64,000 nucleotides of DNA from a virus. The notes below the pieces were generated by a model. The model did not search any database and had not been told where the DNA came from. It saw only the letters and a list, made by a program, of their open reading frames with translations. Within the stretch, counting starts at the first letter, position 1. Each line of letters opens with the position of its first letter. Location of the stretch: positions 1 to 64,000 of the IMG/VR virus record IMGVR_UViG_3300020139_000001. One strand, 5' to 3'. Positions 11,922 to 44,521 of this stretch are shown here, piece by piece. The position numbers were made by a program, and so were the translations under genes.

Positions 11922-12409
11922 GATTAGCAACAAGAGTAGTGAAACATTTACAAAAAAAGTCTATGTTGTCGCCACTTCAGTTTGATGAGGCAATTGGAGT
12001 GGCTCTACTAGGAATCTCAAAACTGCTATACGAACTAGACTTCCACGAGGGGCCGGACTTTGTATATAGAGCTGTAGCTTGGGCACGTAAGGAGGTGCTC
12101 AACGAGAGACAGAAGCTGCTTGCTCAGAGTAGATCTTCGTACGAGGAATGTCCATTAGAAATACATATTGAGGCGAGTGGTTCGTTGGAAGACGATCCCT
12201 ATATAAGAGTCCTAAGACGAGAGTTGCGAAACCTCGTCCTAAGTAGTGTACTGTTGTCCCCCAAACAAAAGCAACTGTTTGTGTTGTTGGATTTCTTACA
12301 TCCAAAGAGTGACTTCAACGACCTTTGTAAGTTGTTAAAAGTAGAACCTGCTACTTTGAAGAGGTTGTTGGCAGGATTAGAGAAGTATTGCGAAGAGGTG
12401 TTGAAATGA
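11909..12409 (+). CDS. Sigma-70-like RNA polymerase sigma factor
   Basis: A 166-residue protein with the outline of a small sigma factor. Residues about 25-68 (FDEAIGVALLGISKLLYELD, then FVYRAVAWARKEVLNE) match sigma region 2.1-2.2, where the core polymerase is contacted. Residues about 110-160 (LSPKQKQLFVLLDFL, then FNDLCKLLKVEPATLKRLLAGLEK) look like the region 4 helix-turn-helix. It would redirect host RNA polymerase to phage, perhaps late, promoters as T4 gp55 does; that is inference. It is embedded between Rad50-C and the polymerase, with overlaps on both sides. Confidence 0.7.
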   Translation: MDYVGLATRVVKHLQKKSMLSPLQFDEAIGVALLGISKLLYELDFHEGPDFVYRAVAWARKEVLNERQKLLAQSRSSYEECPLEIHIEASGSLEDDPYIRVLRRELRNLVLSSVLLSPKQKQLFVLLDFLHPKSDFNDLCKLLKVEPATLKRLLAGLEKYCEEVLK

Positions 12410-15159
12410 GAAAGGTATTTTGGTTCATCGCTCTCGAGGTACGAGAGCCTCAAGTTGATGTGTATGCTCCACACGAACTTTTCACATATCATCCACATAC
12501 AAAGATCGGAGAAGTCAGCGTGGGTAGACTATTGCTGAACGCATACTTTGGGACACCTATGAGACTACTTACTGCTGTAGACATGCAACATTTACCTTCA
12601 GACATGCCATTCAATATAAAACTCCTGAGTGATACGGTTATTACCCACGTTTTACTTTCGTATAACCCAAATTTAAGTTGGGTTTTGTCGGCTCTACATG
12701 AATCTACGTTTTGGTCTTACGTCCAATGGTGTAAAGCGTTAGTAGACGGTATCTGCTCTGCGTGCTCTCTCCACAAAGAGGACACTTTTGTACCAAGTGA
12801 TGGTGCACTAGAGAATTGTGAACTAGTGATCGTAGGACAGGCGCCTGGAGCGGAAGAGGTGAAGCAAGGCAAACCATTCATAGGCCCTGCGGGCCAGTAC
12901 CTCTTCTCTAGGCTCTCAGAAATCGGAGTGCTCAGAGAGAGTTGCTACATTACTAACACGGTTAAGTGCAGACCTCCTCGTGATGCGGAACCAACGACAG
13001 AACAAGTACAGTCTTGCTCAGTGTTTCTGAAAGTGGAGTTGGCTCAAGTACAAGGACTTAAGGTGGCTGTAGGTAAGGTAGCTACTAGAGCACTCACTTC
13101 ACTAAAGACATTCAGGATTGACGATTACGTAGGAACACAAATAGAAGATGTCTTTGTCTTGAGACATCCAGCTAGCATTCTTCGGAATAGATCGCCTTGG
13201 TTGGAGAGGCAGTTTCGAGAGCACGTACAGAAGTTAAGAGATTTCAAACATGGGTCTCAACAACTAACATTCCCACGAGAGAAACATAAGGTTGTGACTC
13301 GTAAGGAAGATTTAGAAGAGGTATTGGATTGGATCAAACAACAACCATATGTAGCACTCGACATCGAGACTGCAGACAGAAGGATTTATTCCACAGTATT
13401 GACTATCTCTATAGGAACTGACGAGAGAGTGTACACGATTGATGTCGAAGGAGTAGGGGGTATTGAGAAGTGTATTGATGTGTTAAAGGAAGCAGATGGG
13501 AAGATAATCTGCCACAACGCCGAGTTCGATCTAAAGATTCTAAACTACCATACTGGATTGCAGTTGAAGTGTATGTGGGATACTATGTTGGTACAGCACG
13601 TATTGGATGAGGAGTCTGAACTTGGGTTGGGTCATCTAGCCACCCGTTTCTTGAACGCTCCACCATATAAACAGTTGAGTTTCTCGTGGGACGAAGTGTT
13701 CGTAAAGCAACAGAAGACTTCTCTGAGAGAAGCACTTACACCTGAACAGATCGACGAGTTATACTTCTACAACGCTATGGATACTTTTTATACTTATCAT
13801 TTGTTTTTACTACAACAACAGCAGCTCACGCCTGAGAACGGAGAGACATTCTTCAAACGTGTTATGCTTCCTCTCGTGCATGTATTCACCGACAACGTGT
13901 ATGGGATACCGATCGATGCCGCACGAATGATGGAAGTGGAAAAAGAGTTGAATATTCCAGAGGAAGAAGAGAGACTATACCAGATAGTAGGAGCGAGATT
14001 CAACTATAGGTCTACTAGGGAGCTCGAGCAGATACTTCGGACGTGGGGAGTGACGGAGGAGCAAACAGGAAAGACGGAAAGGACTGGAGCAATGTCTCTT
14101 ACCAAAGATGTGCTCAAGTCTCTTACTTCGCATCCTATTGAGAAGGTAAAGGAGCTGTCTACGCAATTGCTCAAAGTGCGAGAGCTGCAGAAGTTGAGGG
14201 ACACATACATCCGACAACTGTCAAAAACACTGTATGTCAACAAGTACACCGGAGTGGTATCTGTCTCTCCTTCGTTCAGATTGCACGCGTCCAAGACCTA
14301 TAGGATCAATACAGAGGAACCCAACATTCACAACATACCCCGAGACTCTGTCATACAGAAACTCATATATGCTCCTCCCAAATATGTTATACTTGGTGCA
14401 GACTTTCAATCAGCAGAGGCGTTCCATGCAGCCAGAGTTACTGGAGAGGAGAAGATTATCGAGTTCGTGTTGAATCCAGAGTTAGACCAGCATCGCTATA
14501 CAGCCTCTAGGATTTATAACATACCGGAGGACCAAGTAACTAAGACTCAACGGACGAACGCAAAGCTCGCATGGTTCTGCTTACAATACGGAGGTACAGA
14601 GTATGCGATCTCTAGAGACTTCGGTTTGACATTGGAGGAAGCAGCACAACTCGTGAAAGGGATCAAGCAAACCTACCCTAGACTGTTCCGAATGATGGAA
14701 GTCTTTGTGCAGAAAGCGAGAACAGAGAGGAGACTCGTTAATCGGTTTGGCGCTATCAGAAGATTTCCTTTGTGGACAAAAGAGTTTGCACAGTCTTTTG
14801 CTAGACAAGCGTTGAACTTCCCTTTCCAATCTGAGGTAGCAATCTATTGTCATCTATCCGCGATCGACTTACATGAAGTGATGAAAGTGGTGGGGCATCT
14901 GAAGTGGCGTATTCTGTTTACTATCCATGATGCGATCTACACTATAGTCAGAGAGGAACTGGCATTGATTGCAGCTGCAGTAATGAAAAAGATTATGGAG
15001 TTGGAGAGGGAAGGAATGTTCCTCCTGTCAGATCCGAAAGTTGGTCCTACTTGGTATGATCTTTCAGACATCAAAGATCCAACATTTCCTCAGCTCCTAG
15101 AGTTGGGGCTCGAACAACTAATTTCTGAGCTTGTGGAACAAGCCCAGAAACTTAAGTAG
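12406..15159 (+). CDS. Uracil-DNA glycosylase (family 4) fused to family A DNA polymerase
   Basis: A 917-residue fusion. After about 110 unassigned residues comes a family-4 uracil-DNA glycosylase: four iron-sulfur cysteines (117, 120, 188, 204), motif VGQAPGAEE (143-151) and RHPAS near 253-257. A DEDDy 3'-5' exonuclease follows (DIET at 319-322, HNAEFD at 370-375, YNAMD at 455-459). The Pol I-type palm and fingers follow: motif A with Asp666 in GADFQSAEAF, motif B R716-K720-F724-Y728 and motif C HDA at 841-843, where most Pol I enzymes have HDE. There is no 5' nuclease. This is the replicative polymerase candidate, with built-in uracil removal. ATG at 12406 overlaps the sigma stop (ATGA) and has GAGGTG before it. 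Confidence 0.93.
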   Translation: MRKVFWFIALEVREPQVDVYAPHELFTYHPHTKIGEVSVGRLLLNAYFGTPMRLLTAVDMQHLPSDMPFNIKLLSDTVITHVLLSYNPNLSWVLSALHESTFWSYVQWCKALVDGICSACSLHKEDTFVPSDGALENCELVIVGQAPGAEEVKQGKPFIGPAGQYLFSRLSEIGVLRESCYITNTVKCRPPRDAEPTTEQVQSCSVFLKVELAQVQGLKVAVGKVATRALTSLKTFRIDDYVGTQIEDVFVLRHPASILRNRSPWLERQFREHVQKLRDFKHGSQQLTFPREKHKVVTRKEDLEEVLDWIKQQPYVALDIETADRRIYSTVLTISIGTDERVYTIDVEGVGGIEKCIDVLKEADGKIICHNAEFDLKILNYHTGLQLKCMWDTMLVQHVLDEESELGLGHLATRFLNAPPYKQLSFSWDEVFVKQQKTSLREALTPEQIDELYFYNAMDTFYTYHLFLLQQQQLTPENGETFFKRVMLPLVHVFTDNVYGIPIDAARMMEVEKELNIPEEEERLYQIVGARFNYRSTRELEQILRTWGVTEEQTGKTERTGAMSLTKDVLKSLTSHPIEKVKELSTQLLKVRELQKLRDTYIRQLSKTLYVNKYTGVVSVSPSFRLHASKTYRINTEEPNIHNIPRDSVIQKLIYAPPKYVILGADFQSAEAFHAARVTGEEKIIEFVLNPELDQHRYTASRIYNIPEDQVTKTQRTNAKLAWFCLQYGGTEYAISRDFGLTLEEAAQLVKGIKQTYPRLFRMMEVFVQKARTERRLVNRFGAIRRFPLWTKEFAQSFARQALNFPFQSEVAIYCHLSAIDLHEVMKVVGHLKWRILFTIHDAIYTIVREELALIAAAVMKKIMELEREGMFLLSDPKVGPTWYDLSDIKDPTFPQLLELGLEQLISELVEQAQKLK

Positions 15160-21455: not shown

Positions 21456-22152
21456 AAGAGCCTTCACAGAGCTCTTCGGTATCCACAAAAGAAGAAAAGT
21501 TACTTACATTTGCAATCACTTTGATTGCGAAATGTTGTTCACGATTGCGGGTCTGCAAGGCATTTATGTTCCCCAATCTTTGTGGGAGATAGTTGAGTAT
21601 AGAGACGTTTCGTTTTATGTTGGCGTACGACCTCTGTTTATAGAGACAGAACATCCACAAGGTTGGAAGATCGCTATCACTAATGCTATACTGTCTCAAT
21701 ATAGGCTGATCGGCGACATCACTCCACTCGTACGAGAGCTACTTCGATTGATCAAGAGTGAGAACATCTACGCGTTCGTACTGGATCGTCCTAATGTCGT
21801 GCTCTTTGCTGAAGAACCTCTACGTGTAGGAGTTGCTTTCCCATCGAAAAGATCTCAAGGATTCTCCTCTTTCTACATGTACGCAGATCTTGTGATTGCT
21901 TATGACGGAAGAAAGATTTCTATAGGTCTACGTTCGGAAGAGTACCTTCACCTTTTTGGTCCTACAGGACTGCTCTCCTTAGCAAGTATGTTAGGCGGCG
22001 GTTGGGGTGGTAGAAGCATGCTTATATGCTCTCCTAGATCGCAGAAGATGTCGCTTCCACAGCTTATGGAGGTCGTGTCTAAAGTACTGCGTTTTTTGAA
22101 GGGAGGACGAGATGTCAGATTTATTCGAAACTCTCGGCATCGCACCTGTTGA
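21316..22152 (+). CDS. Hypothetical protein overlapping SprT-like and RecA genes
   Basis: A 278-residue protein of unrecognised family. CTGGAGGAAG lies before ATG 21316, which is 140 bases inside the SprT-like gene, and the end overlaps the RecA gene by 41 bases. Its sequence includes PPLDHHGESADLPPPVRRAF, then ICNHFDCEMLFTIAGLQG, suggesting an alpha/beta core with His/Asp residues that could bind metal. The C-terminal 100 residues are strand-rich. Placement between SSB and recombinase suggests a DNA role. Confidence 0.7.
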   Translation: MRVKVCTVPPKRMLKHYVPLEWHELGGPIQPPLDHHGESADLPPPVRRAFTELFGIHKRRKVTYICNHFDCEMLFTIAGLQGIYVPQSLWEIVEYRDVSFYVGVRPLFIETEHPQGWKIAITNAILSQYRLIGDITPLVRELLRLIKSENIYAFVLDRPNVVLFAEEPLRVGVAFPSKRSQGFSSFYMYADLVIAYDGRKISIGLRSEEYLHLFGPTGLLSLASMLGGGWGGRSMLICSPRSQKMSLPQLMEVVSKVLRFLKGGRDVRFIRNSRHRTC

Positions 22153-23116
22153 CTCCGACCTCAAAACAGATGTGAAAGAGGTCATTCCTACTAACATAAT
22201 TCCTCTCGACATAGCTACTGGAGTAGGAGGCATACCTAGAGGCAGAATGACCTCCATTATAGGAAAATACAGCACGTGCAAGAGTACTATTAGCATACTA
22301 CTTGCGCGCAGTAATCATATGTTAGGAGGAAAGACGATCATACTTGACACAGAAAATACATACGAATCCACGAGACTAAAGTCTCTGGGTGTTGACCCTA
22401 AGAGTGTAGCTATCCTCACTTCTTACAAAGAAGATGTTGGATTCACTATGGAAACTGCATCTGAGTTCATTCTTTCTGCAGCAAAACTAGCTAAACCAGA
22501 GGACAAGTTGCTCATTATTTGGGACACTATCAGTAGTACACCATTAGCAGCAGAGGTAGCAGAGGAAGTAGACTTTGATAGTTTGAAGAAGCTTATGGGT
22601 ACACACTCGAGAATGCTCTCGAGACTCCTTAGAGCAGTGCCTAAAACATTTGTAGATAACAACGTCACTTTTGTTATGGTTGTACAACCAAAGATTGATC
22701 CGATGACAGGTTCGACCACGTATCTGGGGGAGCTTCCTATCAAGTTCCACTCCTCTATGATCATTCAATTGTCCACTTTCTCAAAAGAGGAGAAGCGTAT
22801 GACTATACAATTCGAGATCGTGAAGAACAAGGTAGCCCCTCCTAGTGGAAGAGGCAAATTTATCTACTACTACAAAGAGGGAGTAGACTACGTCTCTGCT
22901 TGGGAGCCCGCTGTAGGAAAGTCTGCTGCACACTATACGTTAGACAACGTCTCTGTTAAGAGAACAGAGTCGGCTCTCCTTTTGCGAAAGAAGAAAGAAC
23001 TAATTGAACAATTAGTTCTTTCTTCCTTAGCAAGACCCATTCCTTATCGCGTACTTATTCCGGATATGGAACAGACTAGAACAACAGAGGAGGAGGAAAA
23101 TGTTCAAACTGTCTGA
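22112..23116 (+). CDS. RecA/UvsX-family recombinase
   Basis: A 334-residue strand-exchange ATPase. GKYSTCKST (residues 51-59) occupies the Walker A position with Cys56 where a glycine is normal, and LLIIWDTISSTP is the Walker B region. TFVMVVQPKIDPMTG and the following GELPIKFHSS match the loop 1/loop 2 and RecA-core order. It starts after GAAGGGAGG within the preceding gene. With the gp32-like SSB and UvsW helicase it forms the recombination module. A perfect 16-bp hairpin lies in the last part of the gene. Confidence 0.87.
   Translation: MSDLFETLGIAPVDSDLKTDVKEVIPTNIIPLDIATGVGGIPRGRMTSIIGKYSTCKSTISILLARSNHMLGGKTIILDTENTYESTRLKSLGVDPKSVAILTSYKEDVGFTMETASEFILSAAKLAKPEDKLLIIWDTISSTPLAAEVAEEVDFDSLKKLMGTHSRMLSRLLRAVPKTFVDNNVTFVMVVQPKIDPMTGSTTYLGELPIKFHSSMIIQLSTFSKEEKRMTIQFEIVKNKVAPPSGRGKFIYYYKEGVDYVSAWEPAVGKSAAHYTLDNVSVKRTESALLLRKKKELIEQLVLSSLARPIPYRVLIPDMEQTRTTEEEENVQTV
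22991..23024 (+). repeat. Perfect 16-bp intragenic palindrome in RecA gene
   Basis: aagaaagaactaattg at 22991-23006 and its exact reverse complement at 23009-23024, separated by two bases. It lies about 90 bases before the recombinase stop and upstream of queE. No T-run follows, though the right arm is itself T-rich, so attenuation or RNA processing is possible. Confidence 0.9.
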
Positions 23117-23720
23117 GTTGTTCACTAGCATTCAAGGGGAGGTTCAGTGGGTAGGACGCTATAGTGTCTTCGTGCGATTTGCAGGGTGCAACCTGAATTG
23201 TCTTTTTTGTGACACACCTCAAAAAACAAAGATCGATATGGAGATTGATGTACCTCGCCTTTTGTCCTACCTCAAAGAGGCACAAGCTCAGCATGTAGTG
23301 ATAACTGGTGGTGAACCACTTCTCAATATCGCTGAGATTGATTACTTGCTTTCTGAACTTCCCGAAGAAGTCTCTGTTGAGATAGAGACCAATGGTACGT
23401 TACTAGAGAGAGTGCCTAATAAGTGGGTGGGCAAAGTATACTTCAACATCTCCCCCAAAGTACACTACAGAGAACTATATACATCGCTTCCCCCAGACTG
23501 GCCTCATACGGTATACAAATTCCCTGTAGACGAGACCAACTTACAAGAGACAAAGAGTTTCATTATGCACCATCAGATCCCAAAGAAGATAGTGTACTTT
23601 ATGCCAATTTCAAAAACATATACGGAGTATGTGCTAAATGCCCCTATAGTACTAGAGGAGGCACTCTCTTGGAGAGTAAACTTCTCTCCAAGACTTCAAC
23701 TTATACAAGCGGTAAAATAG
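23100..23720 (+). CDS. queE: QueE, 7-carboxy-7-deazaguanine synthase
   Basis: A 206-residue radical SAM enzyme that rearranges 6-carboxytetrahydropterin to 7-carboxy-7-deazaguanine, a step to preQ0. The iron-sulfur motif is GCNLNCLFCD (CxxxCxxC), preceded by SIQGEVQWVGR typical of QueE, with ITGGEPLLN as the SAM-binding GGEP motif and a C-terminal NFSPRLQLI. GAGGAGGA precedes the ATG, which overlaps the recombinase end by 17 bases. It forms a modification module with the DpdA-like gene and the GAT-QueC fusion. Confidence 0.92.
   Translation: MFKLSELFTSIQGEVQWVGRYSVFVRFAGCNLNCLFCDTPQKTKIDMEIDVPRLLSYLKEAQAQHVVITGGEPLLNIAEIDYLLSELPEEVSVEIETNGTLLERVPNKWVGKVYFNISPKVHYRELYTSLPPDWPHTVYKFPVDETNLQETKSFIMHHQIPKKIVYFMPISKTYTEYVLNAPIVLEEALSWRVNFSPRLQLIQAVK
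23667..23693 (+). repeat. 10-bp inverted repeat near end of queE
   Basis: tcttggagag (23667-23676) and its exact reverse complement (23684-23693) enclose a 7-base loop, about 30 bases before the queE stop. Confidence 0.7.
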
Positions 23721-23729
23721 AGGTGTGCT

Positions 23730-24542
23730 ATGATTGTATATCACCGAATTATGAAGTACGAAGTCCTGAGGTACTTACAACGACATTTGCCCGCTCCACT
23801 AGCGATCAGCATCTTAGATTATGATGTAGTAATGGACACTAACTGGCTCTCAGTTAGAGAGCACTTCCCTAGTCTGAGGATATTCTTTGATCGTGCTGTG
23901 TTCGAGAAGATCGAAGTCAGCACCGACCAATATCTTCGGTGGGTGGAAGTGCTGAAACCTGACTGTTGGGTACTTCCTGATGTAATCGACTCATTAGAAG
24001 ACACTATCCGTCTACTAGGAGAATACTCCTCTCAGATCTCGACTCTGAAACATAGAGGACAAAGAGTTTTGGTCTTAGCATCAGTACCCACTGATATGTC
24101 AATTGACGAAAAGATTAGAAAGTTTATCCAAGACTTCAGGATTACGCATATCGGTATTCCTTACAGAAGTGGACCTACTCCTACTTCGTTCTACAACCGG
24201 CTGGAAGCAATGTGGTACGCAGATCACCTCCGCTTGAGAAAACATTGGTTAGGTTTGGAGAGGATCACCGAGCTAGGATGTATATTCTTGACAAACGGAA
24301 GTTTAGATACTAATCTGTGTCTAGCTTCCACACTAGAGGGGTTCAGGATATCTGAGCACTACTCAAAGATAGCTATCCCAGAGAAAGTGGAGAGGATCGA
24401 TGTAGATCTTTTAAGAGAGAATATTCTGTTGTTGGAGAACTACATTAACTCCCTACGGAGGAAGTATGGCAGTACTCCATATACTAGACGAAAATTTTAC
24501 AAAGGTCGAAGACCATACCGAAGAGGAGTTCGCGTGTCTTAG
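23730..24542 (+). CDS. DpdA-like DNA guanine transglycosylase
   Basis: A 270-residue TGT-family protein, predicted to exchange guanine in DNA for a 7-deazaguanine base. The order of motifs fits DpdA: FFDRAVFEK (51-60) where DpdA has a DSGAF-type motif with the first acid, YLRWVEVLKPDCWVLPDVIDS (68-88) with the second acid, then HIGIPY (140-145) and a LGL stretch. The first motif is diverged. It starts 9 bases after queE, with AGAGGTG before the ATG, and overlaps the helicase by 77 bases. The alternative, a tRNA transglycosylase, is less likely because length and neighbours fit the phage DNA type. Confidence 0.75.
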   Translation: MIVYHRIMKYEVLRYLQRHLPAPLAISILDYDVVMDTNWLSVREHFPSLRIFFDRAVFEKIEVSTDQYLRWVEVLKPDCWVLPDVIDSLEDTIRLLGEYSSQISTLKHRGQRVLVLASVPTDMSIDEKIRKFIQDFRITHIGIPYRSGPTPTSFYNRLEAMWYADHLRLRKHWLGLERITELGCIFLTNGSLDTNLCLASTLEGFRISEHYSKIAIPEKVERIDVDLLRENILLLENYINSLRRKYGSTPYTRRKFYKGRRPYRRGVRVS

Positions 24543-25779
24543 AGAGCTCCTTTCTTACACACAATATTATATGATGTACGGTAGGTGGATAAGAGATACT
24601 AAATATCTCTTGTCCGCCACCAAAAAATTAATGCCCACCGGATTGGTTCCTTATGTTCAGTCACGTTTGACAATACCACTCAACATTATTGATGACAGAG
24701 TTCATTGGACTCTAGACATCTCTTCCATACAAGGCAAGCTAGAACCCTATCAGCAAGAGGTATTGAGTCAGATACAACAGAAGAAGAGATGTATTGTATG
24801 TTTACCCACAGGTAGTGGGAAGACTTACATGTACAGCGTCGTGAGTGCATTCATTGATAAGAAGGTAGCGATCGTCGTACCCGCAAAAGAAGTTCTGGAT
24901 CAGGTTGAGAGAACCTTGAGAGAGTATACCAATGACTTTGTTGTCTTCTGGGGGCCAAAAACTGACTTGGACAAAAGAATCGTAATATCTACTGCGGGCA
25001 CGCTAGCCGCAAGATTCAACTACATAAGGGAAGAGATGTCTACTGTTGAGGTGCTGTTTGCAGATGAAGCACATTACTATGGTGCAAACTCATTCTTCAG
25101 AGTCTCACACTTGTTTCCCAGAGCACACTATCGTGTGGGGTTTTCTGCTACGCCAGTAGGTAGATCCGATAAAGCTGATCTTCGTGTGTTAGGAGTGTTT
25201 TCTCCCGAGATGATCTATACGACACATAAGATAGATAGGATCGTACCCGTAAGCGTAGTATTTTTGGATTATACAAAGAATAACCCAGCGTTTTCTGACC
25301 CAGAAGACTATGAAGCTCTCTTAAAGGATCGTCGTAGGATCCAAGCTATCTGTTGGATTGCTTCCCAACTGCGGGATACACAGATCCCGTTTCTTATATT
25401 CGTAGACAGGCTTGAGTTAGGCGAGAAGATCGCCTTTCACTTGCAGATTCCGTTCGTTACAGCAAACTCCAACGACAGAGGCAAAGTCTTCCAACAGATA
25501 AGAGAGAATAAACTTATAGGTGCCGTTACAACAATTGGACACACCGGATTGGATATTCCGGTACTAATGGCTATTATCAACACCGTACGAGACACTACAC
25601 CTATAAGTTTGGGACAACGTGCAGGACGTGTAATGAGGAAACTGGACTCGAAGAACATTGGAGTAGTGTTCGATTTCTTAGATCGAGGAAGGTTACCTGC
25701 ACGTTGGGCTAGTAAAAGAATGAGAGTATATCAAGCGTTAGGATTTAGTGTTATGACTTTGGAGGTACCAATGTTATGA
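24466..25779 (+). CDS. UvsW-like superfamily 2 helicase
   Basis: A 437-residue SF2 helicase. Motifs: Q-like YQQEVLSQI, Walker A LPTGSGKT, DEAH (FADEAHYY), SATP, and motif VI QRAGRVMRK. The N-terminal 100 residues precede the helicase core as in T4 UvsW, which unwinds R-loops and branch-migrates recombination intermediates. CGGAGGAAG precedes the ATG inside the DpdA-like gene. The stop is overlapped by the nuclease start (ATGA). Confidence 0.9.
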   Translation: MAVLHILDENFTKVEDHTEEEFACLRELLSYTQYYMMYGRWIRDTKYLLSATKKLMPTGLVPYVQSRLTIPLNIIDDRVHWTLDISSIQGKLEPYQQEVLSQIQQKKRCIVCLPTGSGKTYMYSVVSAFIDKKVAIVVPAKEVLDQVERTLREYTNDFVVFWGPKTDLDKRIVISTAGTLAARFNYIREEMSTVEVLFADEAHYYGANSFFRVSHLFPRAHYRVGFSATPVGRSDKADLRVLGVFSPEMIYTTHKIDRIVPVSVVFLDYTKNNPAFSDPEDYEALLKDRRRIQAICWIASQLRDTQIPFLIFVDRLELGEKIAFHLQIPFVTANSNDRGKVFQQIRENKLIGAVTTIGHTGLDIPVLMAIINTVRDTTPISLGQRAGRVMRKLDSKNIGVVFDFLDRGRLPARWASKRMRVYQALGFSVMTLEVPML

Positions 25780-26447
25780 TTCTCCGTGTGACAAATCTAG
25801 AATTTGTACAGACGTGCGAGGTTCAGTTTGCTTTTGCTCATTCAGGAAGGTTCGTGTTCGAGTCCGCAGCGTCAAAACGTGGAAAAGAGCTGCATACGTT
25901 GTTCGAAAGTATAGTGAGGGGAGACCTAACAAAAGTGCCCTCTCACTATACTACTATAGTCAATAACTTACGACAATGGTGGGTATCCAAAGAACGTACT
26001 GTACTATTGCAAGAAAAGAGACTGCGAGTCAAGCTCGGAGAAGGTATAGAGCTCACCGGCAAACCTGACTTGGTAGTAAAAGAAGACGGTCTCGTAAAGA
26101 TCGTCGATCTCAAAACTGGACAGAATCCTGAGACCTATCTGTACTCACCACAACTCCCCTTGTATGCAATACTTATCATGTTGCATACATCATGTCAGGT
26201 TCAGCCACGTATGCTTGCTGTACTTGGTGTAGATGGGCGTTCATATGAGAAAGATATGACACTCGAGGATATTACGTTCGCTACAAAATTGATAGAGTTT
26301 GCAGTTGCGATACTCGAGAGAGGATACTTCCGAAAGGGATACAGCTGTAGTTATTGTGACTACTTCCCTCTGTGTTTCCAGATCAAGAAACACGTAGTAA
26401 CGATGGAGGATATCGACAAACTTTCACTACAGGAGGTGACAAAATGA
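25776..26447 (+). CDS. PD-(D/E)XK nuclease, RecB/Cas4-like
   Basis: A 223-residue exonuclease-type protein. GKELHTLF (His40) is the family's N-terminal His motif, TGKPDLVV (Asp98) and KIVDLKTG (Asp111, Lys113) are the catalytic core, and a C-terminal cysteine group (YSCSYCDYFPLC), with Cys14 near the start, may bind an iron-sulfur cluster as in Cas4 and AddB. Start overlaps the helicase stop and it overlaps the next start, so helicase and nuclease are co-translated, probably acting together on DNA ends. No CRISPR genes are nearby. Confidence 0.88.
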   Translation: MILRVTNLEFVQTCEVQFAFAHSGRFVFESAASKRGKELHTLFESIVRGDLTKVPSHYTTIVNNLRQWWVSKERTVLLQEKRLRVKLGEGIELTGKPDLVVKEDGLVKIVDLKTGQNPETYLYSPQLPLYAILIMLHTSCQVQPRMLAVLGVDGRSYEKDMTLEDITFATKLIEFAVAILERGYFRKGYSCSYCDYFPLCFQIKKHVVTMEDIDKLSLQEVTK

Positions 26448-27112
26448 GGTTCAGGTGTTGGGTAAGAGGAGATGACAATGTTTGGCACGACGAGGGACGT
26501 TGGACGGCGTCCGACTACCTTGACTGTTTCAATAAGATACTCACAACTAGAGCTGAGAGAGAAGGCCAACCCGTATGGCAGAACGCTGAGTTTCCTATTC
26601 AAGTTCAAGAAGATGCACTTATGGAGATAGACGATTGGTCACCTATTCGTGCTCCAGGACAAGCGCTGAGTAACTTCAATGCGGCGTTCATTATAGCCTA
26701 CGAAGAGACGCCATACGTTCGTTGGATACACACAGAGCTATCACTTCTTCGGGATAAGGATGTAGGATCTACATTTAGAGCTTATATTCGTGGAGAGAGT
26801 GGGAGGTGGATAGATGGAGGCTTTCTCTACACGAGTGATCCACGAGAGGCAGTAAAACTAGTGCTTTCTGGAGCACCAGAACAGTACGCTGAAGCTGGCA
26901 GAAAATACTACAAGTGGGACAATGCTTGGTTTGAACTAGGAGAGGAGTCTTCAATCAACGTGAGCTGGGAAACGATTTCCTCTCCTATTGACATACGATC
27001 TACCCCGGTATATTTTAGTGGAGACAACCACGTGATCGTTCTGTACGACGGACTGAGGTACATGAGATGGTTGTTACAAGAGTTAACAGCGAGATTGGCG
27101 TGTTGTAGTTGA
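26444..27112 (+). CDS. Tandem-duplicated Trp-rich hypothetical protein
   Basis: A 222-residue protein with two similar halves: FRCWVRGDDNVWHDEGRWT and YIRGESGRWIDGGFLYTS, each followed by a helix and another W-rich strand (VWQNAEFPI; KWDNAWFEL). I do not know the family. A related pattern (FRVWLQSEGG, then LWEDLG) starts the protein at 29188-29799, so this phage carries at least two members of one small domain family. AGGAGGTG precedes ATG 26444, which overlaps the nuclease stop. Confidence 0.7.
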   Translation: MRFRCWVRGDDNVWHDEGRWTASDYLDCFNKILTTRAEREGQPVWQNAEFPIQVQEDALMEIDDWSPIRAPGQALSNFNAAFIIAYEETPYVRWIHTELSLLRDKDVGSTFRAYIRGESGRWIDGGFLYTSDPREAVKLVLSGAPEQYAEAGRKYYKWDNAWFELGEESSINVSWETISSPIDIRSTPVYFSGDNHVIVLYDGLRYMRWLLQELTARLACCS

Positions 27113-27297
27113 AAAAGTGTGTCCAATGTGGTAGGAGTTTTAACAAGAGTAAGGGCAAGAACCTTTGCCAAAGGTGTTACTATAAACATATGATTTGGAG
27201 CAAGCACCGTAAGAAAGGAGGTACACATGTGCACTCTCTTAGGATGGTACAGCACTGTGCCAGTACGAACACCAAAGAAACTACTACCGTACGTTGA
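27109..27297 (+). CDS. Possible small zinc-ribbon protein
   Basis: A 62-residue frame with KCVQCGRSF and NLCQRCYYKHM, a four-cysteine zinc ribbon, then basic residues. The start would be TTG at 27109 without a ribosome site but overlapping the upstream stop. The last 24 residues overlap the GAT-QueC gene. The cysteine pattern is convincing enough to list it, but translation is uncertain. Confidence 0.5.
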   Translation: MKKCVQCGRSFNKSKGKNLCQRCYYKHMIWSKHRKKGGTHVHSLRMVQHCASTNTKETTTVR

Positions 27298-28699
27298 TGC
27301 CAGAGGACGAGATGCTTTTGGTGTCTACGTGGAAACACTAGGAAAATTTGTTTTCTCATCAAAGAAGGATCTCCTCCAGTTTCTACATCATTTACCTGGG
27401 CAAAGATTCGTATCGATTGTATCGAGAGCAATACCTGCAAGTGAGAGGCACGCTACGGACGTTGAAAAAGATACACAACCTTTTACAGACCAGAACTGGG
27501 TAGTAACACATAATGGTATTATCGCAAACGACGAAACCCTAGAGAAACAATACTCCCTTACGAGAACTTCAAAAGTGGACACTGCCGTAGTACCACCACT
27601 ATTACAAAAACTAGGAATCGAGGACACTCTTAAAGCACTACAAGGAAGCTTTGCGTTAACCGTCTACAAAAGGAACACAGGTACGTTGTACTTAGCAACT
27701 AACTTTATGCCTCTCTATTGGGCAGTATCCGGAGCCATGGTAATGTGGTCTAGTATGCCTATCCCAGGCTTTCAACCTTTGGAGCCCTACTCTTATTTGA
27801 CTATCAACAAAAGGAGTGACCATACGTTCAATGTAGTGTCCACAAGACTGCCTACCACATTGGACCAATCTAGAGTCGCAGTCGTATGTAGTGGAGGAAT
27901 GGATAGCGTTACTACATTGCGATTGTATCAAGTCTTAGGTTACTCACCTACCATTGTCCACTTCGACTATGGACAAGCAGCTAGCGAAGTAGAGGACTAC
28001 TGCACATCAAGAATAAGTGAGATCTACGGGATACCGAAGTTAAAGCTAGAAGTATCCCAAATATTCAAACACATGAAGTCTGTCCTTACTACGGCGAAAG
28101 CTGCCGATCCAAAGTATAGGCATTGGGATATGGAAAGCACCTACTCATACGTAGGTGCAAGAAACTTGATACTAGCATCTTTAGCTATGGGCATTGCAGA
28201 AGAACTGAACATTGGAAGACTTGCTCTAGGACTGAATCTGGATGATGGAGGAGGGTATCCAGACAACAACTCCCCCTTTGTAGACACTCTACACCAATTG
28301 AGTGCTTATGCTCTCAATTGGAACCATTACATGTACGTAGAAGCACCATTTGTACACCTTACGAAGAAAGAGATACTCGAAGTAGCTCTAGCTATAGGAT
28401 CTCCTCTACATCTCACCGCTTCGTGCTACTACCCCAAACTAGAGGGCTCACAAATTGTGTATTGTGGACAGTGCGGATGCGACAAGCTAAGGGAAGAGAG
28501 CTTTAGAGCTCTTGGTATTAAGGACCCTATCCCTTACGCTACCAACCCATCTTGGGAAGGTTGTTCAGAACTAGAGCAAACAGACTGGGTTCGGGTTAGA
28601 GAGCCCCACACAAGACTTAAGCTAGAGGAGATACCTTACCACAAGTATCTACAGCTTCGCTCAGATTTGTCAGTAGTAAACTCATTTACTACATCATAG
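27227..28699 (+). CDS. GAT-QueC: class II glutamine amidotransferase fused to QueC
   Basis: A 490-residue two-domain enzyme. Residues 1-205 are a class II amidotransferase (Cys2 after Met1, then RGRDAFGVY, VVTHNGIIANDE and DTAVVPPLL). Residues 215-440 are a QueC-type preQ0 synthase with PP-loop CSGGMDS (221-227), DYGQAASEVE, the RNLILASLA core and a zinc site CGQCGC near 413-418, shifted by one residue from the usual CxxCxxC. Such fusions occur in archaea that make archaeosine and, as I recall, in phage 9g whose DNA carries deoxyarchaeosine. The amidotransferase would feed ammonia to convert preQ0 to the formamidine base. AAAGGAGGT precedes the ATG. Confidence 0.92.
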   Translation: MCTLLGWYSTVPVRTPKKLLPYVDARGRDAFGVYVETLGKFVFSSKKDLLQFLHHLPGQRFVSIVSRAIPASERHATDVEKDTQPFTDQNWVVTHNGIIANDETLEKQYSLTRTSKVDTAVVPPLLQKLGIEDTLKALQGSFALTVYKRNTGTLYLATNFMPLYWAVSGAMVMWSSMPIPGFQPLEPYSYLTINKRSDHTFNVVSTRLPTTLDQSRVAVVCSGGMDSVTTLRLYQVLGYSPTIVHFDYGQAASEVEDYCTSRISEIYGIPKLKLEVSQIFKHMKSVLTTAKAADPKYRHWDMESTYSYVGARNLILASLAMGIAEELNIGRLALGLNLDDGGGYPDNNSPFVDTLHQLSAYALNWNHYMYVEAPFVHLTKKEILEVALAIGSPLHLTASCYYPKLEGSQIVYCGQCGCDKLREESFRALGIKDPIPYATNPSWEGCSELEQTDWVRVREPHTRLKLEEIPYHKYLQLRSDLSVVNSFTTS

Positions 28700-32354: not shown

Positions 32355-34868
32355 TTAGCTTACAATAAAGTTCAGCAGAATACGCTCAACCACTCTTGTA
32401 GGTTTTATGTAGACGTTCACGTGGAATGTCTTCCGAACTAGCTCGTACTCGTTTGCACCTACCTCTACAGAGTACTCGTACAGTCCTCTCCGAGATTGTA
32501 CATCAGCAAGCACTCCTTCTACAGCCACTCTTGCTCTATTCCAAGTAAAGCTATCATTCTGTTCAAAGAGGAACTCACTTAGCGTTCTAGAGATAACCTT
32601 TCTGAGGTACAGTATCAATCTCACGATGTTGACATCAGACAACGCAGACTGCTTACGTTGAGTAGTTAGTTGGCCGTAGACCATGTATCTCTTATTCTTG
32701 TATACTATGGGATTGACTTGGTTGAGATAGAGCAGGTCCAACTCCCCACTAGTTGCATTGAACAGCAACTGTTCTGGGGGAGCAATTGTACCTCTCTGTG
32801 GACCTGCAGGTGCGAACCATATCTCTGCCACCATATCATTATATGGTATTACTCGTGAGAGGAAATAGGATGGAGCAAGAGTTACAACTCTACCTTCGAA
32901 GGTAGAGTATACTTTTACGAATGGAGTATAGAGAGCACAGAGCCAAGAGTTATAAGCATATGCACCATTCCTCTCTTCAATTGTCTGGTCTACGTCTATC
33001 GTTTTGGGGAGATCGAGTATAGCAAAACAATCTCCTCTAACCTCACACAATTCAATAAGAGCATTCTTGATTGGTTTGGAGAATCCTGCATCTAGAACTA
33101 TAGAGATGTCGTTATCCTCTGAATCGATAACTCTAGGATCATACAAGCCAGTAAGAGCATTAGCAAAGACTTTGTTCATAACTGAGGGATTTGCATGAAT
33201 GCCATCGACGGAGATCATACAACCCTCATGTCCTCCTCCAAGTTGTAGTACCTGACCACTAATGGCTTTTGAAGTTTGAGCATCGATCAATACGAGCTGT
33301 GACACAATCCTATCTAACATGGTAGGTGCAGAGTCAGGATCCAAAGGAACGAACTTAGTACTAGGAATTGGTACACCATCGTAGTTGTAGTAAGTGGCTA
33401 TAGGATCGTAGGTAGTTCTAAGCATATTCAGCAATGGACGGTTGCAGTAAACTTGTATGTATTTGGAGTACCTATTAACTACATCCTCTATGAAAGTGCT
33501 GTTGCCCATACCGTCAACAGCAGTGGGATCAAAGCTAACTGTAAACTTCTCTAGATCGATAGAGGACCGTGTAAGTGGATCCTTTGATCCAACAGTGAGT
33601 TCAACATGTCCTGGCATACGCGCATCTCTAGAGAAATACACGTACAGATCGTTGTAGTATTGTCCTCTCCCTTTGGCTGCAATTATGAACACAGGATCAA
33701 CATACTGTGTACCTTGTAACGTACGAGAGCCATAGCTTGTGTCTAGTACTTGTGAGGTTGTCTGAAGAGACTGGACATAGTACGTTGTAGTCGCCGTTGC
33801 CCTAATGTTGTGATCAATCTTAGTGTCTGTCTCAGGATCTAGGTACTTCTTCCTAGTTCTGGTAAGGAGGATGGGGCCCGATATGTTGACGACAATAGTA
33901 GAGGGAATAGGTATATCCACTAATATAATCACACAGTCTCCACTAGGTCCCTCTTGCCACTCTCCAGGTCCAAGTTCGTTTCCGTTGAGGAGAACTGTGA
34001 CTTGTCCTTGTCCAGGAACGAATCTGTTGGACAGGTCAATCGTTGTAGGCGCAGGTATAATGTCTCCTTCTGTAAAGGTAAATGTCTCTGTGACAAAGTG
34101 TGTTAACTGCTGATGCTCTGCAAGTGTTCTAGTAGGAGTAGCACTAAAGTAGACAGGTACGTAACGCTCGAAAGGACTACCGATTTCAAGAGTTCTAGCT
34201 TGAGGAGTAAGCTTGAATACGGCAACTACTTGTCCTGCGGTATAACTACCAGGTAAGAAAATCTCATTGGATACCGAACCTTGGCTACCAACAGGGCTCC
34301 ACTGTACAGGTCCGCTACTGTCTACATATACATGGAACTCACTCTCACCTACAACATAGTTCATGTTAGGATTAGAGAAGGTAATGGTGACGCCTTCAGG
34401 ATAGTTCCGTGTTAATTGAATACTTTCGTTCGCTGCAAATAACTTTTTCTGAAATTCGAGCCCATCATAGCCGTTAACATCAGAAAATACTCTAATACAG
34501 ACGATAGCATTTGCAAACGTAGCCGGTTTATCGATCCAATAGTGTGAAGGAGATGTTGGGTGTGTTAACGTACCTGCGTCTAGTAGTTCTGCGGTGTCCT
34601 CAAGTGTAGGTAAGGGACGAATCACATATAAGTTTCCACTGAGACTAAGCCAATTGAAAGCATTATACAGTGATTGTCCGTACTTCTCAAGATTGGGTGA
34701 GCCGAAGTCGTTGATGAGTTCGCTCTGAGAAGCAACAAAGGTTAATGTGTTGTCTATACCGTAAGGGGACAGTATAGGAATGAAGCCTACTGTTCCTGGT
34801 ACGGGAGTTGCAAAAAGAGACTGATCGATGATCTTAGTATATACACCAGGGGCTATTTGTGTTGGCAT
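32355..34868 (-). CDS. Tail sheath protein (gp18-like)
   Basis: An 837-residue contractile sheath subunit. The N-terminus PTQIAPGVYTKIID with TVGFIPILSPYGIDNT, and the C-terminal block NVIVRLILYLRKVISRTLSEFLF through FHVNVYIKPTRVVERILLNF, are the conserved sheath core; the middle (about 130-480) is strand-rich and variable, longer than T4 gp18 (659 residues). Start follows GGAGG upstream on this strand. A 22-base perfect palindrome lies at 32887-32908. Confidence 0.93.
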   Translation of the reverse strand: MPTQIAPGVYTKIIDQSLFATPVPGTVGFIPILSPYGIDNTLTFVASQSELINDFGSPNLEKYGQSLYNAFNWLSLSGNLYVIRPLPTLEDTAELLDAGTLTHPTSPSHYWIDKPATFANAIVCIRVFSDVNGYDGLEFQKKLFAANESIQLTRNYPEGVTITFSNPNMNYVVGESEFHVYVDSSGPVQWSPVGSQGSVSNEIFLPGSYTAGQVVAVFKLTPQARTLEIGSPFERYVPVYFSATPTRTLAEHQQLTHFVTETFTFTEGDIIPAPTTIDLSNRFVPGQGQVTVLLNGNELGPGEWQEGPSGDCVIILVDIPIPSTIVVNISGPILLTRTRKKYLDPETDTKIDHNIRATATTTYYVQSLQTTSQVLDTSYGSRTLQGTQYVDPVFIIAAKGRGQYYNDLYVYFSRDARMPGHVELTVGSKDPLTRSSIDLEKFTVSFDPTAVDGMGNSTFIEDVVNRYSKYIQVYCNRPLLNMLRTTYDPIATYYNYDGVPIPSTKFVPLDPDSAPTMLDRIVSQLVLIDAQTSKAISGQVLQLGGGHEGCMISVDGIHANPSVMNKVFANALTGLYDPRVIDSEDNDISIVLDAGFSKPIKNALIELCEVRGDCFAILDLPKTIDVDQTIEERNGAYAYNSWLCALYTPFVKVYSTFEGRVVTLAPSYFLSRVIPYNDMVAEIWFAPAGPQRGTIAPPEQLLFNATSGELDLLYLNQVNPIVYKNKRYMVYGQLTTQRKQSALSDVNIVRLILYLRKVISRTLSEFLFEQNDSFTWNRARVAVEGVLADVQSRRGLYEYSVEVGANEYELVRKTFHVNVYIKPTRVVERILLNFIVS
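32887..32908. repeat. Perfect 22-base palindrome in sheath gene
   Basis: actctacctt followed by cg and its mirror, fully self-complementary over 22 bases. On RNA it would form a short hairpin with a four-base loop. It lies in the middle of the sheath coding region. Confidence 0.8.
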
Positions 34869-41801: not shown

Positions 41802-43145
41802 CTACCCCCATGGTTTATGTCCCTTGACCACCCATAAAGTCTCAATATTCACCTTCCTCACACTAGAACTACTACTGTCATCTAAGTACATGAAGTTTAA
41901 CTTTCCACTTTTAGGAACGTGAGCCAAAGCATTGCTCACGTCGAACTCAAACTCGATCTTGTTCCTATTGCTAACCTCTACATCAATCAACTTTGACAAC
42001 AAATTATCATTAGCACCAACAGACACAACCACAATTCTACTACTGCCAGGATCCTGGTCGAACACGCAAGACAACCTAAGTAGATAAGCGCTATCATTAC
42101 TACTTACTATAAAGAACATAGACCTGCCGGTACTAGTTAACACTCCAGTATCGTCTACACTATACAAAACACCCTCTTTGTATGTTCGTACATTACTACC
42201 ATGTATATAGCACTTTGCAGAGGTAATTTCTTCCACTCCTATACCGTAATAGTTACCTAGTCGTAGTCCACTCTTTCTTATCGGAACGATTCTATAGTCA
42301 AAGTCAACATTCAAATTGACGTCAACATAGTCCATCCCATTATCAAACACCATAGGAGGAGGGAGTACACTTATTGAGCTATAATCTCCACCAAAGTCAT
42401 ACATTCTTACTTTTACACTACCGCTACCCGCGAATGCAACCAAGTAGTCACACCACTCCTCATGTTTCGAGTTACCGTCTATACATCTAAACTGAATCTT
42501 AGTTATGGCGTTCAGATTCACTATGCCTATATTATCCATACTCGACAAAGCAATCCTTTTGATCTCCCACGTGTTCGTACTTGATGCAGAAAACATTGCT
42601 GATGCCCAATTAACACCATCTCCTATCCTGAATTCCCAAAGGCCGGTGTTATTAGCATCAGCAGTTGACCTCCAAGCAAATTCTGCATACTCATAATCTC
42701 CCCAATTCTCAGCCACCATTGTCTTTGTAATAGTATCTCCATTACTCTTTTTACCTGATACTTGAATTCTCAGGCTCTTATCACCATTATACTTAATGTC
42801 ATTATCTAACGAAATTGGGGTGTTGGTTGCATCCGATGTTACCCAACTACTTCTCAAGTTCTCATCATCAGTATACTCAAAATCGTCCTTTATGTAAGAA
42901 GTTCCAACTCCAGACAAGAATAGGTTCAAACAATTTATGTTATCACTGCTTGCTCTGAAAACCTGTACAAACCTACTTGGAGGACTTACTCCGTACTCCA
43001 ATACTCCGACGACAGAGTCGGAGTGTAACATGCTCTCCGTTACTCTGCTTACCTCGATCTTTGTACTAACTGTAGCACCACGATAGGGTACACTTATCGT
43101 GGTGCTACTGTAGAAGCTCTCAGTATTGGGGAAAGGATATAACAT
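41802..43145 (-). CDS. Putative adhesin with carbohydrate-binding-like module
   Basis: A 447-residue beta-rich protein. Residues about 85-260 (DFEYTDDENLRSSWVTSD, YAEFAWRSTADANN, WEIKRIALSSM and following) have the jelly-roll outline of carbohydrate-binding modules with an N-terminal DDFE...SSW element. The C-terminus is Ser-rich. ATG at 43145 is chosen because TAGGTG lies just upstream; a GTG at 43154 has no usable ribosome site. It likely binds the cell surface. Two hairpins lie near its 5' end. Base use is A/T-rich. Confidence 0.6.
   Translation of the reverse strand: MLYPFPNTESFYSSTTISVPYRGATVSTKIEVSRVTESMLHSDSVVGVLEYGVSPPSRFVQVFRASSDNINCLNLFLSGVGTSYIKDDFEYTDDENLRSSWVTSDATNTPISLDNDIKYNGDKSLRIQVSGKKSNGDTITKTMVAENWGDYEYAEFAWRSTADANNTGLWEFRIGDGVNWASAMFSASSTNTWEIKRIALSSMDNIGIVNLNAITKIQFRCIDGNSKHEEWCDYLVAFAGSGSVKVRMYDFGGDYSSISVLPPPMVFDNGMDYVDVNLNVDFDYRIVPIRKSGLRLGNYYGIGVEEITSAKCYIHGSNVRTYKEGVLYSVDDTGVLTSTGRSMFFIVSSNDSAYLLRLSCVFDQDPGSSRIVVVSVGANDNLLSKLIDVEVSNRNKIEFEFDVSNALAHVPKSGKLNFMYLDDSSSSSVRKVNIETLWVVKGHKPWG
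43003..43024. repeat. 8-bp inverted repeat in adhesin gene
   Basis: actccgac and gtcggagt around gacaga, about 50 bases from the 14-bp hairpin. Confidence 0.7.
43072..43108. repeat. Perfect 14-bp inverted repeat in adhesin gene
   Basis: gtagcaccacgata (43072-43085) and its exact reverse complement (43095-43108), nine-base loop, near the 5' end of the 41802-43145 gene. Confidence 0.85.
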
Positions 43146-43206
43146 GTCGTTCACACCTAAAAGAATTTTCTTTGTACATCTAAGTGATTAGTCTGTCCAC
43201 CTTCTT

Positions 43207-43314
43207 CTAATTCTTAACAGAAAACTTATTAACTCCGTACAACAACGTGATCAGTCCAACAACACCAACAGGTACAAAACTCTCTCCTTCCATCCTCCCA
43301 AACTGTAACCTCAT
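43207..43314 (-). CDS. 35-residue peptide
   Basis: A small frame with a good GGAGGAG site and an ATG that overlaps the preceding stop (TGATG). It encodes FVPVGVVGLITLLYGVNKF, a hydrophobic helix. Coupling and ribosome site support translation; function unknown. Confidence 0.55.
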   Translation of the reverse strand: MRLQFGRMEGESFVPVGVVGLITLLYGVNKFSVKN

Positions 43315-43622
43315 CAATATTCTCCTCCTGTAAGACTCAGTCCAGTGTTGAGACTAGTAGTTAGTATAAAACTGTTGGTACTAGACTCGACTTTAATGTA
43401 GTTTATGTAGATGGGAGTTGTACTAAACCTATCCCATCTAAACTCGTTTTCGTTACAATCGAAGGTTTGACTCCAAACACCTTTTAGAGCTAAGGTTACG
43501 ATGAAGGGGGGAGTGCATTGAACGCTAACAAACAGACGCAGTTCTGACAAGTTATGGTCTACTCCTGTAGGTAACGACTCAACTCGGGGATACCAAATAA
43601 ACCAGCTAGGAAACGTAGACAT
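43314..43622 (-). CDS. Small beta-rich tail protein
   Basis: A 102-residue protein with strand-rich, Trp-containing sequence (WFIWYPRVESLP, LRLFVSVQCTPP). No family recognised. It belongs to the adhesin cassette and follows the 43627 gene by four bases. Confidence 0.6.
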   Translation of the reverse strand: MSTFPSWFIWYPRVESLPTGVDHNLSELRLFVSVQCTPPFIVTLALKGVWSQTFDCNENEFRWDRFSTTPIYINYIKVESSTNSFILTTSLNTGLSLTGGEY

Positions 43623-43626
43623 TACT

Positions 43627-43764
43627 TTACACCTCCACAGAATCGGTTGATGCTACCTTCCAACTGACTCTAAAGAATGGGTACTTACTACCAAGCCCCC
43701 TAAACTTACTTGCATGCATCTTTCTAGTAATGAAAACAGGTGGAGAACTCAGTTGTAGGTGCAT
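43627..43764 (-). CDS. Small beta-rich protein, first of the minus-strand cassette
   Basis: A 45-residue product from ATG 43764, which is preceded by AAGAGGAGC; the longer reading from 43887 has no ribosome site and would overlap the divergent tube gene. Strands MHLQLSSPPVFITRKM and FFRVSWKVA. It resembles the following protein in style and may be a piece of one structural unit. Confidence 0.5.
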   Translation of the reverse strand: MHLQLSSPPVFITRKMHASKFRGLGSKYPFFRVSWKVASTDSVEV

Positions 43765-43784
43765 ACGATTGGTGCTCCTCTTAG

Positions 43785-43811
43785 TTTGTTCACTGTTATT
43801 TCTCGAACAAA
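43785..43811. promoter_or_regulatory. Inverted repeat in divergent promoter region
   Basis: tttgttc (43785-43791) and gaacaaa (43805-43811) with 13 bases between, in the 82-base gap between divergent genes. The symmetry suits a dimeric regulator controlling both directions; no clear -35/-10 pair is visible. Confidence 0.4.
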
Positions 43812-43846
43812 AAACTGATGTTACCAAGAAGCTACTGAGGTGAGAT

Positions 43847-44521
43847 ATGGCAAACGTTTTCAATAGTGTCCTACGGTCTCCTATCACAAAAGATGGAACT
43901 TATGAGTGGGATCCACTCATAAGTGGTTACTTCTTCTTCCAATTTGTAAGAGTACCCAGAGCATTGGAGGATCAAAGTGCTCTCTTCGTAAAGCAGTCGA
44001 TCGCTTTGTGTACAGCAATCACGCTACCGGATGTAAACATAGGTACTGTTGAGAGGATCGGTTTAGGTGGTGTCAAGACAGTAGTACCCACCGCATTGGA
44101 CCAAACGACCACCTTCGAATTCAGGTTCATTGAAGTAGTGAGAAGTGATGCTTCTCCACCACTAATACAATACTTCGCAATGTGGCATAACTCGATCAGA
44201 AACCACTTCGCTGGAGTAGCTGATGCGGAGAAAGCTGCAACAATGAACTCCTATAAAGCTACATCTGTCTTTATCGCTGTAGATCCTGCTGTGAGTACAC
44301 TCGCTTTTGGCGTCAAGCTCTTTGGAGTATGGCCTACCATACTACCATATAGCGGATACACTGCGGATGTGGCCACCAACGATGTTGTTGAGTTCACCCA
44401 AACACTCTCAGTAGATAGAGCAGTACAAGTAACACTAGAGGATCCGGACACAAATGCACTCTTCACGTACGTAAAAGCACAGATCGATCAGTATAGAGGA
44501 TCTGTACCGTTCACGAAGTAA
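43847..44521 (+). CDS. Tail tube protein (gp19-like), second copy
   Basis: A 224-residue protein with the gp19 fold outline: FFFQFVRV early, CTAITLPDVNIGTVERIG, TFEFRFIEVVRSDA, MWHNSIRNHF, FGVKLFGVWPTILPYSG and VVEFTQTLSVDRAV. The order matches T4 gp19 (ATALPAG, WTVTVMND, WPTN and EVTLALD). CTGAGGTGAG precedes the ATG. It opens the plus-strand baseplate operon, so it might be a tube or a terminal tube-like baseplate protein. Confidence 0.75.
   Translation: MANVFNSVLRSPITKDGTYEWDPLISGYFFFQFVRVPRALEDQSALFVKQSIALCTAITLPDVNIGTVERIGLGGVKTVVPTALDQTTTFEFRFIEVVRSDASPPLIQYFAMWHNSIRNHFAGVADAEKAATMNSYKATSVFIAVDPAVSTLAFGVKLFGVWPTILPYSGYTADVATNDVVEFTQTLSVDRAVQVTLEDPDTNALFTYVKAQIDQYRGSVPFTK
43898..43924 (+). 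repeat. 12-bp intragenic inverted repeat in tube gene
   Basis: acttatgagtgg and its exact reverse complement around gat, near the start of the tube-like gene. Confidence 0.8.

Follow-up and report, generated by a model that had tools for sequence, protein, structure and literature searches.

Phage 9g encodes FolE, QueD, QueE, a glutamine amidotransferase fused to QueC (GAT-QueC) and a DNA guanine transglycosylase, DpdA, of what we call here the 9g type. Its DpdA alone gives 2'-deoxy-7-cyano-7-deazaguanosine (dPreQ0); in plasmid DNA of Escherichia coli, GAT-QueC and DpdA together bring deoxyarchaeosine (dG+) to about 9-18% of G and block EcoRI, and 27% replacement by dG+ is reported for the phage itself (PMC6884629). 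Crenarchaeal archaeosine synthases have the same domain fusion, a likeness by description only, and act on tRNA with the archaeosine tRNA-guanine transglycosylase (arcTGT) (PMC6884629). In the Campylobacter phages CP220 and CPt10, deoxyguanosine (dG) is 100% replaced by 2'-deoxy-7-amido-7-deazaguanosine (dADG), according to PMC8306585, which cites Crippen 2019; a 2019 survey had placed dADG-bearing Campylobacter phages in a group with the pathway to 7-cyano-7-deazaguanine (preQ0) but no DpdA (PMC6884629). The locus considered here lies in a window of 64,000 bases (bases 1-64000 of the 77,756-base record IMGVR_UViG_3300020139_000001) from an uncultured tailed phage with a contractile tail, in which a portal, a major head protein and a tail sheath were identified. 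Three of its genes very probably form a DNA-modification module, most likely with deoxyarchaeosine as its product:

23100-23720, plus strand: QueE, 7-carboxy-7-deazaguanine synthase, a radical S-adenosylmethionine (SAM) protein of 206 amino acids (PHROG 2076)
23730-24542, plus strand: candidate small DpdA-type DNA guanine transglycosylase of 270 amino acids (profile homology, predicted fold)
27227-28699, plus strand: GAT-QueC, 490 amino acids (Pfam QueC, GATase_7)

An earlier reading of this DNA (the original prediction) had named QueE, a protein of the tRNA-guanine transglycosylase (TGT) superfamily and GAT-QueC, and all three are present on the plus strand where it had placed them. The identities of QueE and GAT-QueC are unambiguous from family models. 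QueE matches the QueE-like PHROG 2076 (E 2e-33); the radical SAM CxxxCxxC already noted in it reads GCNLNCLFC, alignment to phage QueE shows the QGE, TGGEP, ETNGT and SPK motifs as well, and purine-rich GAGGAGGAGG lies immediately 5' of its start. The other protein had been described as a fusion of a class II amidotransferase with QueC, and Pfam models match both domains (QueC, E 3.9e-41; GATase_7, 1.7e-17). It is about 30% identical to phage GAT-QueC proteins across 90% of its length (28.5% to that of phage 9g, which resembles the window in having QueE and GAT-QueC). Its amidotransferase domain retains C2, R67, N96-G97 and D118, whose roles are those known for class II amidotransferases. The QueC domain has the P-loop SGGxDS (SGGMDS, 222-227) together with Y248, R312, Y344 and C400-Y401. 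The residues of E. coli QueC that are essential for preQ0 synthesis (Y35, R99, Y131 and Y189; PMC13329287) correspond to Y248, R312, Y344 and Y401, so that all four are kept. In cellular genomes, a search with GAT-QueC yielded for the most part alphaproteobacterial matches to the QueC domain, plus one Phycisphaerales contig at 40%, too little to name a host.

The transglycosylase proved much harder to place. The 23730 protein has no match in Pfam, PHROGs or NCBIfam, nor among PDB sequences, and its earlier naming as DpdA had therefore stood on motifs alone. A tblastn search of 50,697 phage records gave four records at E<=1, all with E 0.3; these are near-identical Flavobacterium phages, each matched at a gene annotated DpdA, which is suggestive only. 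When viral contigs were scanned with window proteins one at a time, or with a Youna2/BSP7 alignment, no relatives appeared, and an alignment containing the 23730 protein held no conserved stretch usable for searching. Scanning IMG/VR with a GAT-QueC alignment did find one, IMGVR_UViG_3300005573_000071 (99,356 bases; G002 below). Judged by identities of 50% in GAT-QueC, 63% in the major head protein, 57.5% in RecA and 51% in the polymerase, G002 is a real relative of the window phage and the closest found; the QueE proteins of the two are 46% identical. Its gene at 81476-82168 encodes a protein 32% identical to the 23730 protein over 147 residues (E about 1e-14), in which the small DpdA motifs are clear (FFDNAVFE, LPDIFND, IHLLG and S-CDTS).

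Against a profile built from six small DpdA-like phage proteins, the G002 protein scores P 3.8e-14, the window and G002 pair 1.5e-11 and the window open reading frame (ORF) alone 7e-4; none of 65 other ORFs from the record does better than 2.7e-3, and 60 shuffles give at least 0.075. With 26 sequences in the profile the window protein alone reaches P 6.7e-8 and the G002 protein 2.2e-16, and the best of the 312 ORFs of an unrelated virus, HVTV-1, stays at 4.6e-4. The small family (230-290 amino acids) is in turn related to a 60-sequence profile of 9g-type DpdA (P 3.9e-8), with motifs in register (LDNS/LDSG, PD/LD, HLLG/HGFG and S-DT/S-DS). By this chain of profile matches, the 23730 protein is homologous to DpdA. 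It matches the CP220/immuto/BSP7 group by profile, that is, the small family to which the proteins of CP220 and CPt10 belong; those phages and Flavobacterium phage immuto resemble the window in profile-level homology, size and DpdA motifs. They differ in the dADG of CP220 DNA and the QueF of immuto, and in that the window couples its small DpdA with GAT-QueC. Cui et al. 2023 reportedly defined a DpdA3 (complete replacement) and a DpdA4 (archaeal viruses), and the small family is, we presume, probably DpdA3. Two other assignments were rejected. On a five-sequence 9g-type profile the window protein alone is not significant (P 0.51), and only the pooled window and G002 profile matches the 60-sequence 9g-type profile (3.6e-6); DpdA2 of phage nt-1 (YP_008125322) gives hhalign probabilities of 5-24% with the small family (P 8e-4 to 9e-3). 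The prediction of a DpdA-type protein at 23730 is thus upheld, through G002 and the small-DpdA profile, for an exchanger that is not of the 9g type.

The best-scoring HVTV-1 ORF in the control above is gene 69 (L215:33803-34963), which adjoins FolE and encodes DMHLLGG...VSIDGNA, resembling DpdA motifs; it leads the 312 ORFs, but with a P of only 4.6e-4. It is possibly, on our assumption, the published DpdA4. The 2019 survey lists this archaeal virus with 7-deazaguanine DNA and without DpdA.

Alignment of the 23730 protein shows invariant D54, D84, H172-x-x-G175, D193 and N231, and D54, D84 and D193 are candidate recognition or catalytic residues. The 'two acidic motifs of DpdA' first reported are accordingly three acidic positions, all retained. 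AlphaFold2 on the single sequence was uninformative (pLDDT, the predicted local distance difference test, 34), and a 20-sequence alignment was used instead, giving a mean pLDDT of 68.6 and a predicted template modelling score of 0.66. In the PDB the model finds tRNA-guanine transglycosylases at the top (E 6e-5), with arcTGT also among the best, and its matches among viral structures include phage proteins annotated queuine tRNA-ribosyltransferase. Template modelling scores of about 0.5 mean that it supports the TGT superfamily but not details; with moderate confidence, the predicted fold is the triosephosphate isomerase barrel of a TGT with Asp at the base-binding and nucleophile positions. 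This fold is common to tRNA and DNA enzymes, and QueE and QueC are enzymes of the tRNA pathway, as they would be if the phage boosted queuosine or archaeosine in host tRNA and thereby aided translation. We regard a tRNA target as highly improbable: the only cysteines of the 23730 protein (C79, C184 and C197) are not grouped as in the zinc site of a tRNA-type TGT, the protein falls short of bacterial TGT by about 100 residues and matches phage DpdA at profile level, the small family takes the place of 9g-type DpdA in GAT-QueC loci, and the gene stands among recombinase and helicase genes in a record in which no tRNA genes were found.

The distribution of the two exchangers bears on the same question. 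Among 80 IMG/VR GAT-QueC loci, which are related to one another and so cannot be counted as independent events, 56 have a 9g-type DpdA, 11 a small DpdA and none both; most of the 80 also have FolE, QueD and QueE. In 11 of 11 loci the small DpdA lies on the strand of GAT-QueC and ends upstream of it, no more than about 550 bases away, and all six named phages with a small DpdA that were examined encode QueD and QueE. The GAT-QueC of a further genome, G004, is 44% identical to that of the window yet occurs with a 9g-type DpdA, so the exchanger can differ even between phages with closely related GAT-QueC. G002 itself encodes FolE, QueD, QueE, small DpdA and GAT-QueC. The order RecA, DpdA and QueE, helicase is conserved there (RecA homologue at 79997-81268, helicase homologue after QueE), but DpdA and QueE are reversed and GAT-QueC and QueD lie at a distance from them. 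Homology, predicted fold, co-occurrence in relatives and the parallel with phage 9g (PMC6884629) together sustain the original prediction of 7-deazaguanine DNA modification.

Three further ORFs in these relatives may be recorded. In G004 a 950-residue ORF (L107:2829-5681) has about 290 N-terminal residues of 9g-type DpdA followed by other sequence. In G001, whose major head protein is 42% identical to that of the window, QueE is followed directly by a 461-residue TGT-like protein (L108:12707-14832). G002 has on its minus strand, near FolE, a second radical SAM protein that is weakly QueE-like (L101:13763-14473).

Several observations weigh against a deoxyarchaeosine module. The QueC zinc motif is altered, its last cysteine shifted by one (CGxCGC-D; CGQCGC-D in the window), so that the window cysteines run C400-x12-C413-x2-C416-x-C418-D419 and do not end in the canonical CxxCxxC; CP220, with a small DpdA, has dADG and not dG+, which means that the product cannot be read off from the kind of exchanger; taken by itself, the window protein shares only 14-23% identity with most small-family members; its first motif has R (FFDRA) where most have N (LDNS); and neither FolE, of either type, nor QueD was found in the whole 77,756-base record, the window lacking QueD at the very position where G002 has it. 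The first two raise the prospect that the same module makes another product, GAT-QueC being simply a glutamine-fed QueC and the DNA carrying dPreQ0 or dADG. The dADG of CP220 and CPt10, whose DpdA is likewise of the small type, would agree with this, as would the recurrence of the altered zinc motif in G002 and L015 and the presence of all four residues needed for preQ0 formation. Nevertheless, we consider another product unlikely. The GAT-QueC of phage 9g, and archaeal GAT-QueC in tRNA, yield the archaeosine base, and phage GAT-QueC proteins share sequence changes relative to canonical QueC (69 of 70 loci have YPDN where it has YPDC, and the H of YxQxHxxE is an A) that are consistent with an extra function, as would be expected of an added amidine-forming step. 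The shifted cysteine is found in the window, G002 (L013/L014) and L015, whereas 68 loci, and phage 9g, have the canonical CGxCGxC; four cysteines remain, and we read the putative zinc site as a variant in a domain that is otherwise clearly QueC.

The missing genes and the R in the first motif could also mean that the module is decaying, queD and folE having been lost and the transglycosylase having drifted to inactivity. The empty queD position and the failure to find either gene in the record fit such decay, and the former indicates that the window genes are at least rearranged. We think decay improbable, since all three ORFs are intact with their candidate active-site residues kept, and since the record itself is probably incomplete. 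No terminase large subunit was found in it, though portal and capsid are present; in G002 the terminase lies upstream of the portal, and the ORFs of G002 from 14.5 to 48.3 kb have no match in the record, which together point to truncation. The G002 terminase match (43084-44373) contains two in-frame TAG codons, which could be a frameshift boundary, an insertion or recoding. By analogy with G002, folE and queD may lie in the stretch of phage DNA that the record lacks. It had been noted that both are absent from the window and must come from the host or another region; the absence extends to the whole record, but supply by the host is not required, given that G002 carries both and the record looks truncated. 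A search for a preQ0 transporter (PF02592) found none.

The genes around the module, and the structural genes that identify the phage, are as follows:

2337-4148: T4-type portal
5199-6674: major head protein
22112-23116, plus strand: RecA/UvsX-like recombinase (Pfam RecA, 1e-22), directly upstream of QueE
24466-25779, plus strand: DEAD/ResIII-type DNA helicase (Pfam ResIII, 2.5e-20; PHROG 16, 2.3e-45)
25776-26447, plus strand: Cas4/RecB-type PD-(D/E)XK nuclease (Pfam PDDEXK_1, 1.2e-16)
32355-34868, minus strand: tail sheath

The QueE-DpdA pair and GAT-QueC belong to one plus-strand run of genes, but the 'one operon' first proposed is not contiguous: the helicase, the Cas4-like nuclease and two unassigned ORFs intervene. 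A Cas4-domain exonuclease and a helicase flank the cluster of phage 9g as well, which otherwise differs from the window in its exchanger, in its FolE and QueD and in its zinc motif. The helicase probably serves replication or recombination rather than the modification itself. Elsewhere, a family A DNA polymerase of 923 residues (12388-15159) has an N-terminal uracil-DNA glycosylase domain (138-279) ahead of exonuclease and polymerase domains, and five paralogous ORFs of unassigned function, each starting ML..R..IEEWL, stand in tandem beyond the window at 64553-69406 of the record.

For the deoxyarchaeosine module we suggest the following route. FolE and QueD would be encoded either by the host or in phage sequence missing from the record, and QueE would make 7-carboxy-7-deazaguanine, which the QueC domain of GAT-QueC would convert to preQ0 with ammonia from glutamine supplied by the fused amidotransferase. 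The small, DpdA3-like enzyme would remove guanine from phage DNA and put the 7-deazaguanine base in its place, and GAT-QueC would also turn preQ0, free or already inserted, into the amidine, giving deoxyarchaeosine; insertion and amidine formation could occur in either order. The modified DNA would then escape host restriction enzymes. The product first proposed, deoxyarchaeosine, is still the best guess and, by analogy with phage 9g, the most likely one. The statement that part of dG is replaced may be too modest: the exchanger type occurs in CP220 and CPt10, where replacement is complete, and replacement here may far exceed the 27% of phage 9g. It is conceivable, though doubtful, that a DpdA3-type exchanger with GAT-QueC leads to cationic deoxyarchaeosine in place of nearly all guanines, in which case, at a GC content of about 44%, charges on the bases would balance about one-fifth of those on the backbone of the phage genome.

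Modification of DNA with 7-deazaguanines is already known; here a very divergent small exchanger is coupled with a probably archaeosine-making GAT-QueC. A DpdA missed by standard family libraries is now placed, and phages formerly listed as lacking DpdA can carry a small TGT-type protein undetected by earlier searches. GAT-QueC phages use two exchanger types, never together among the 80 loci, and their pairing in this phage raises the testable question of whether a positively charged guanine analogue can stand in for nearly all the guanine of a DNA.

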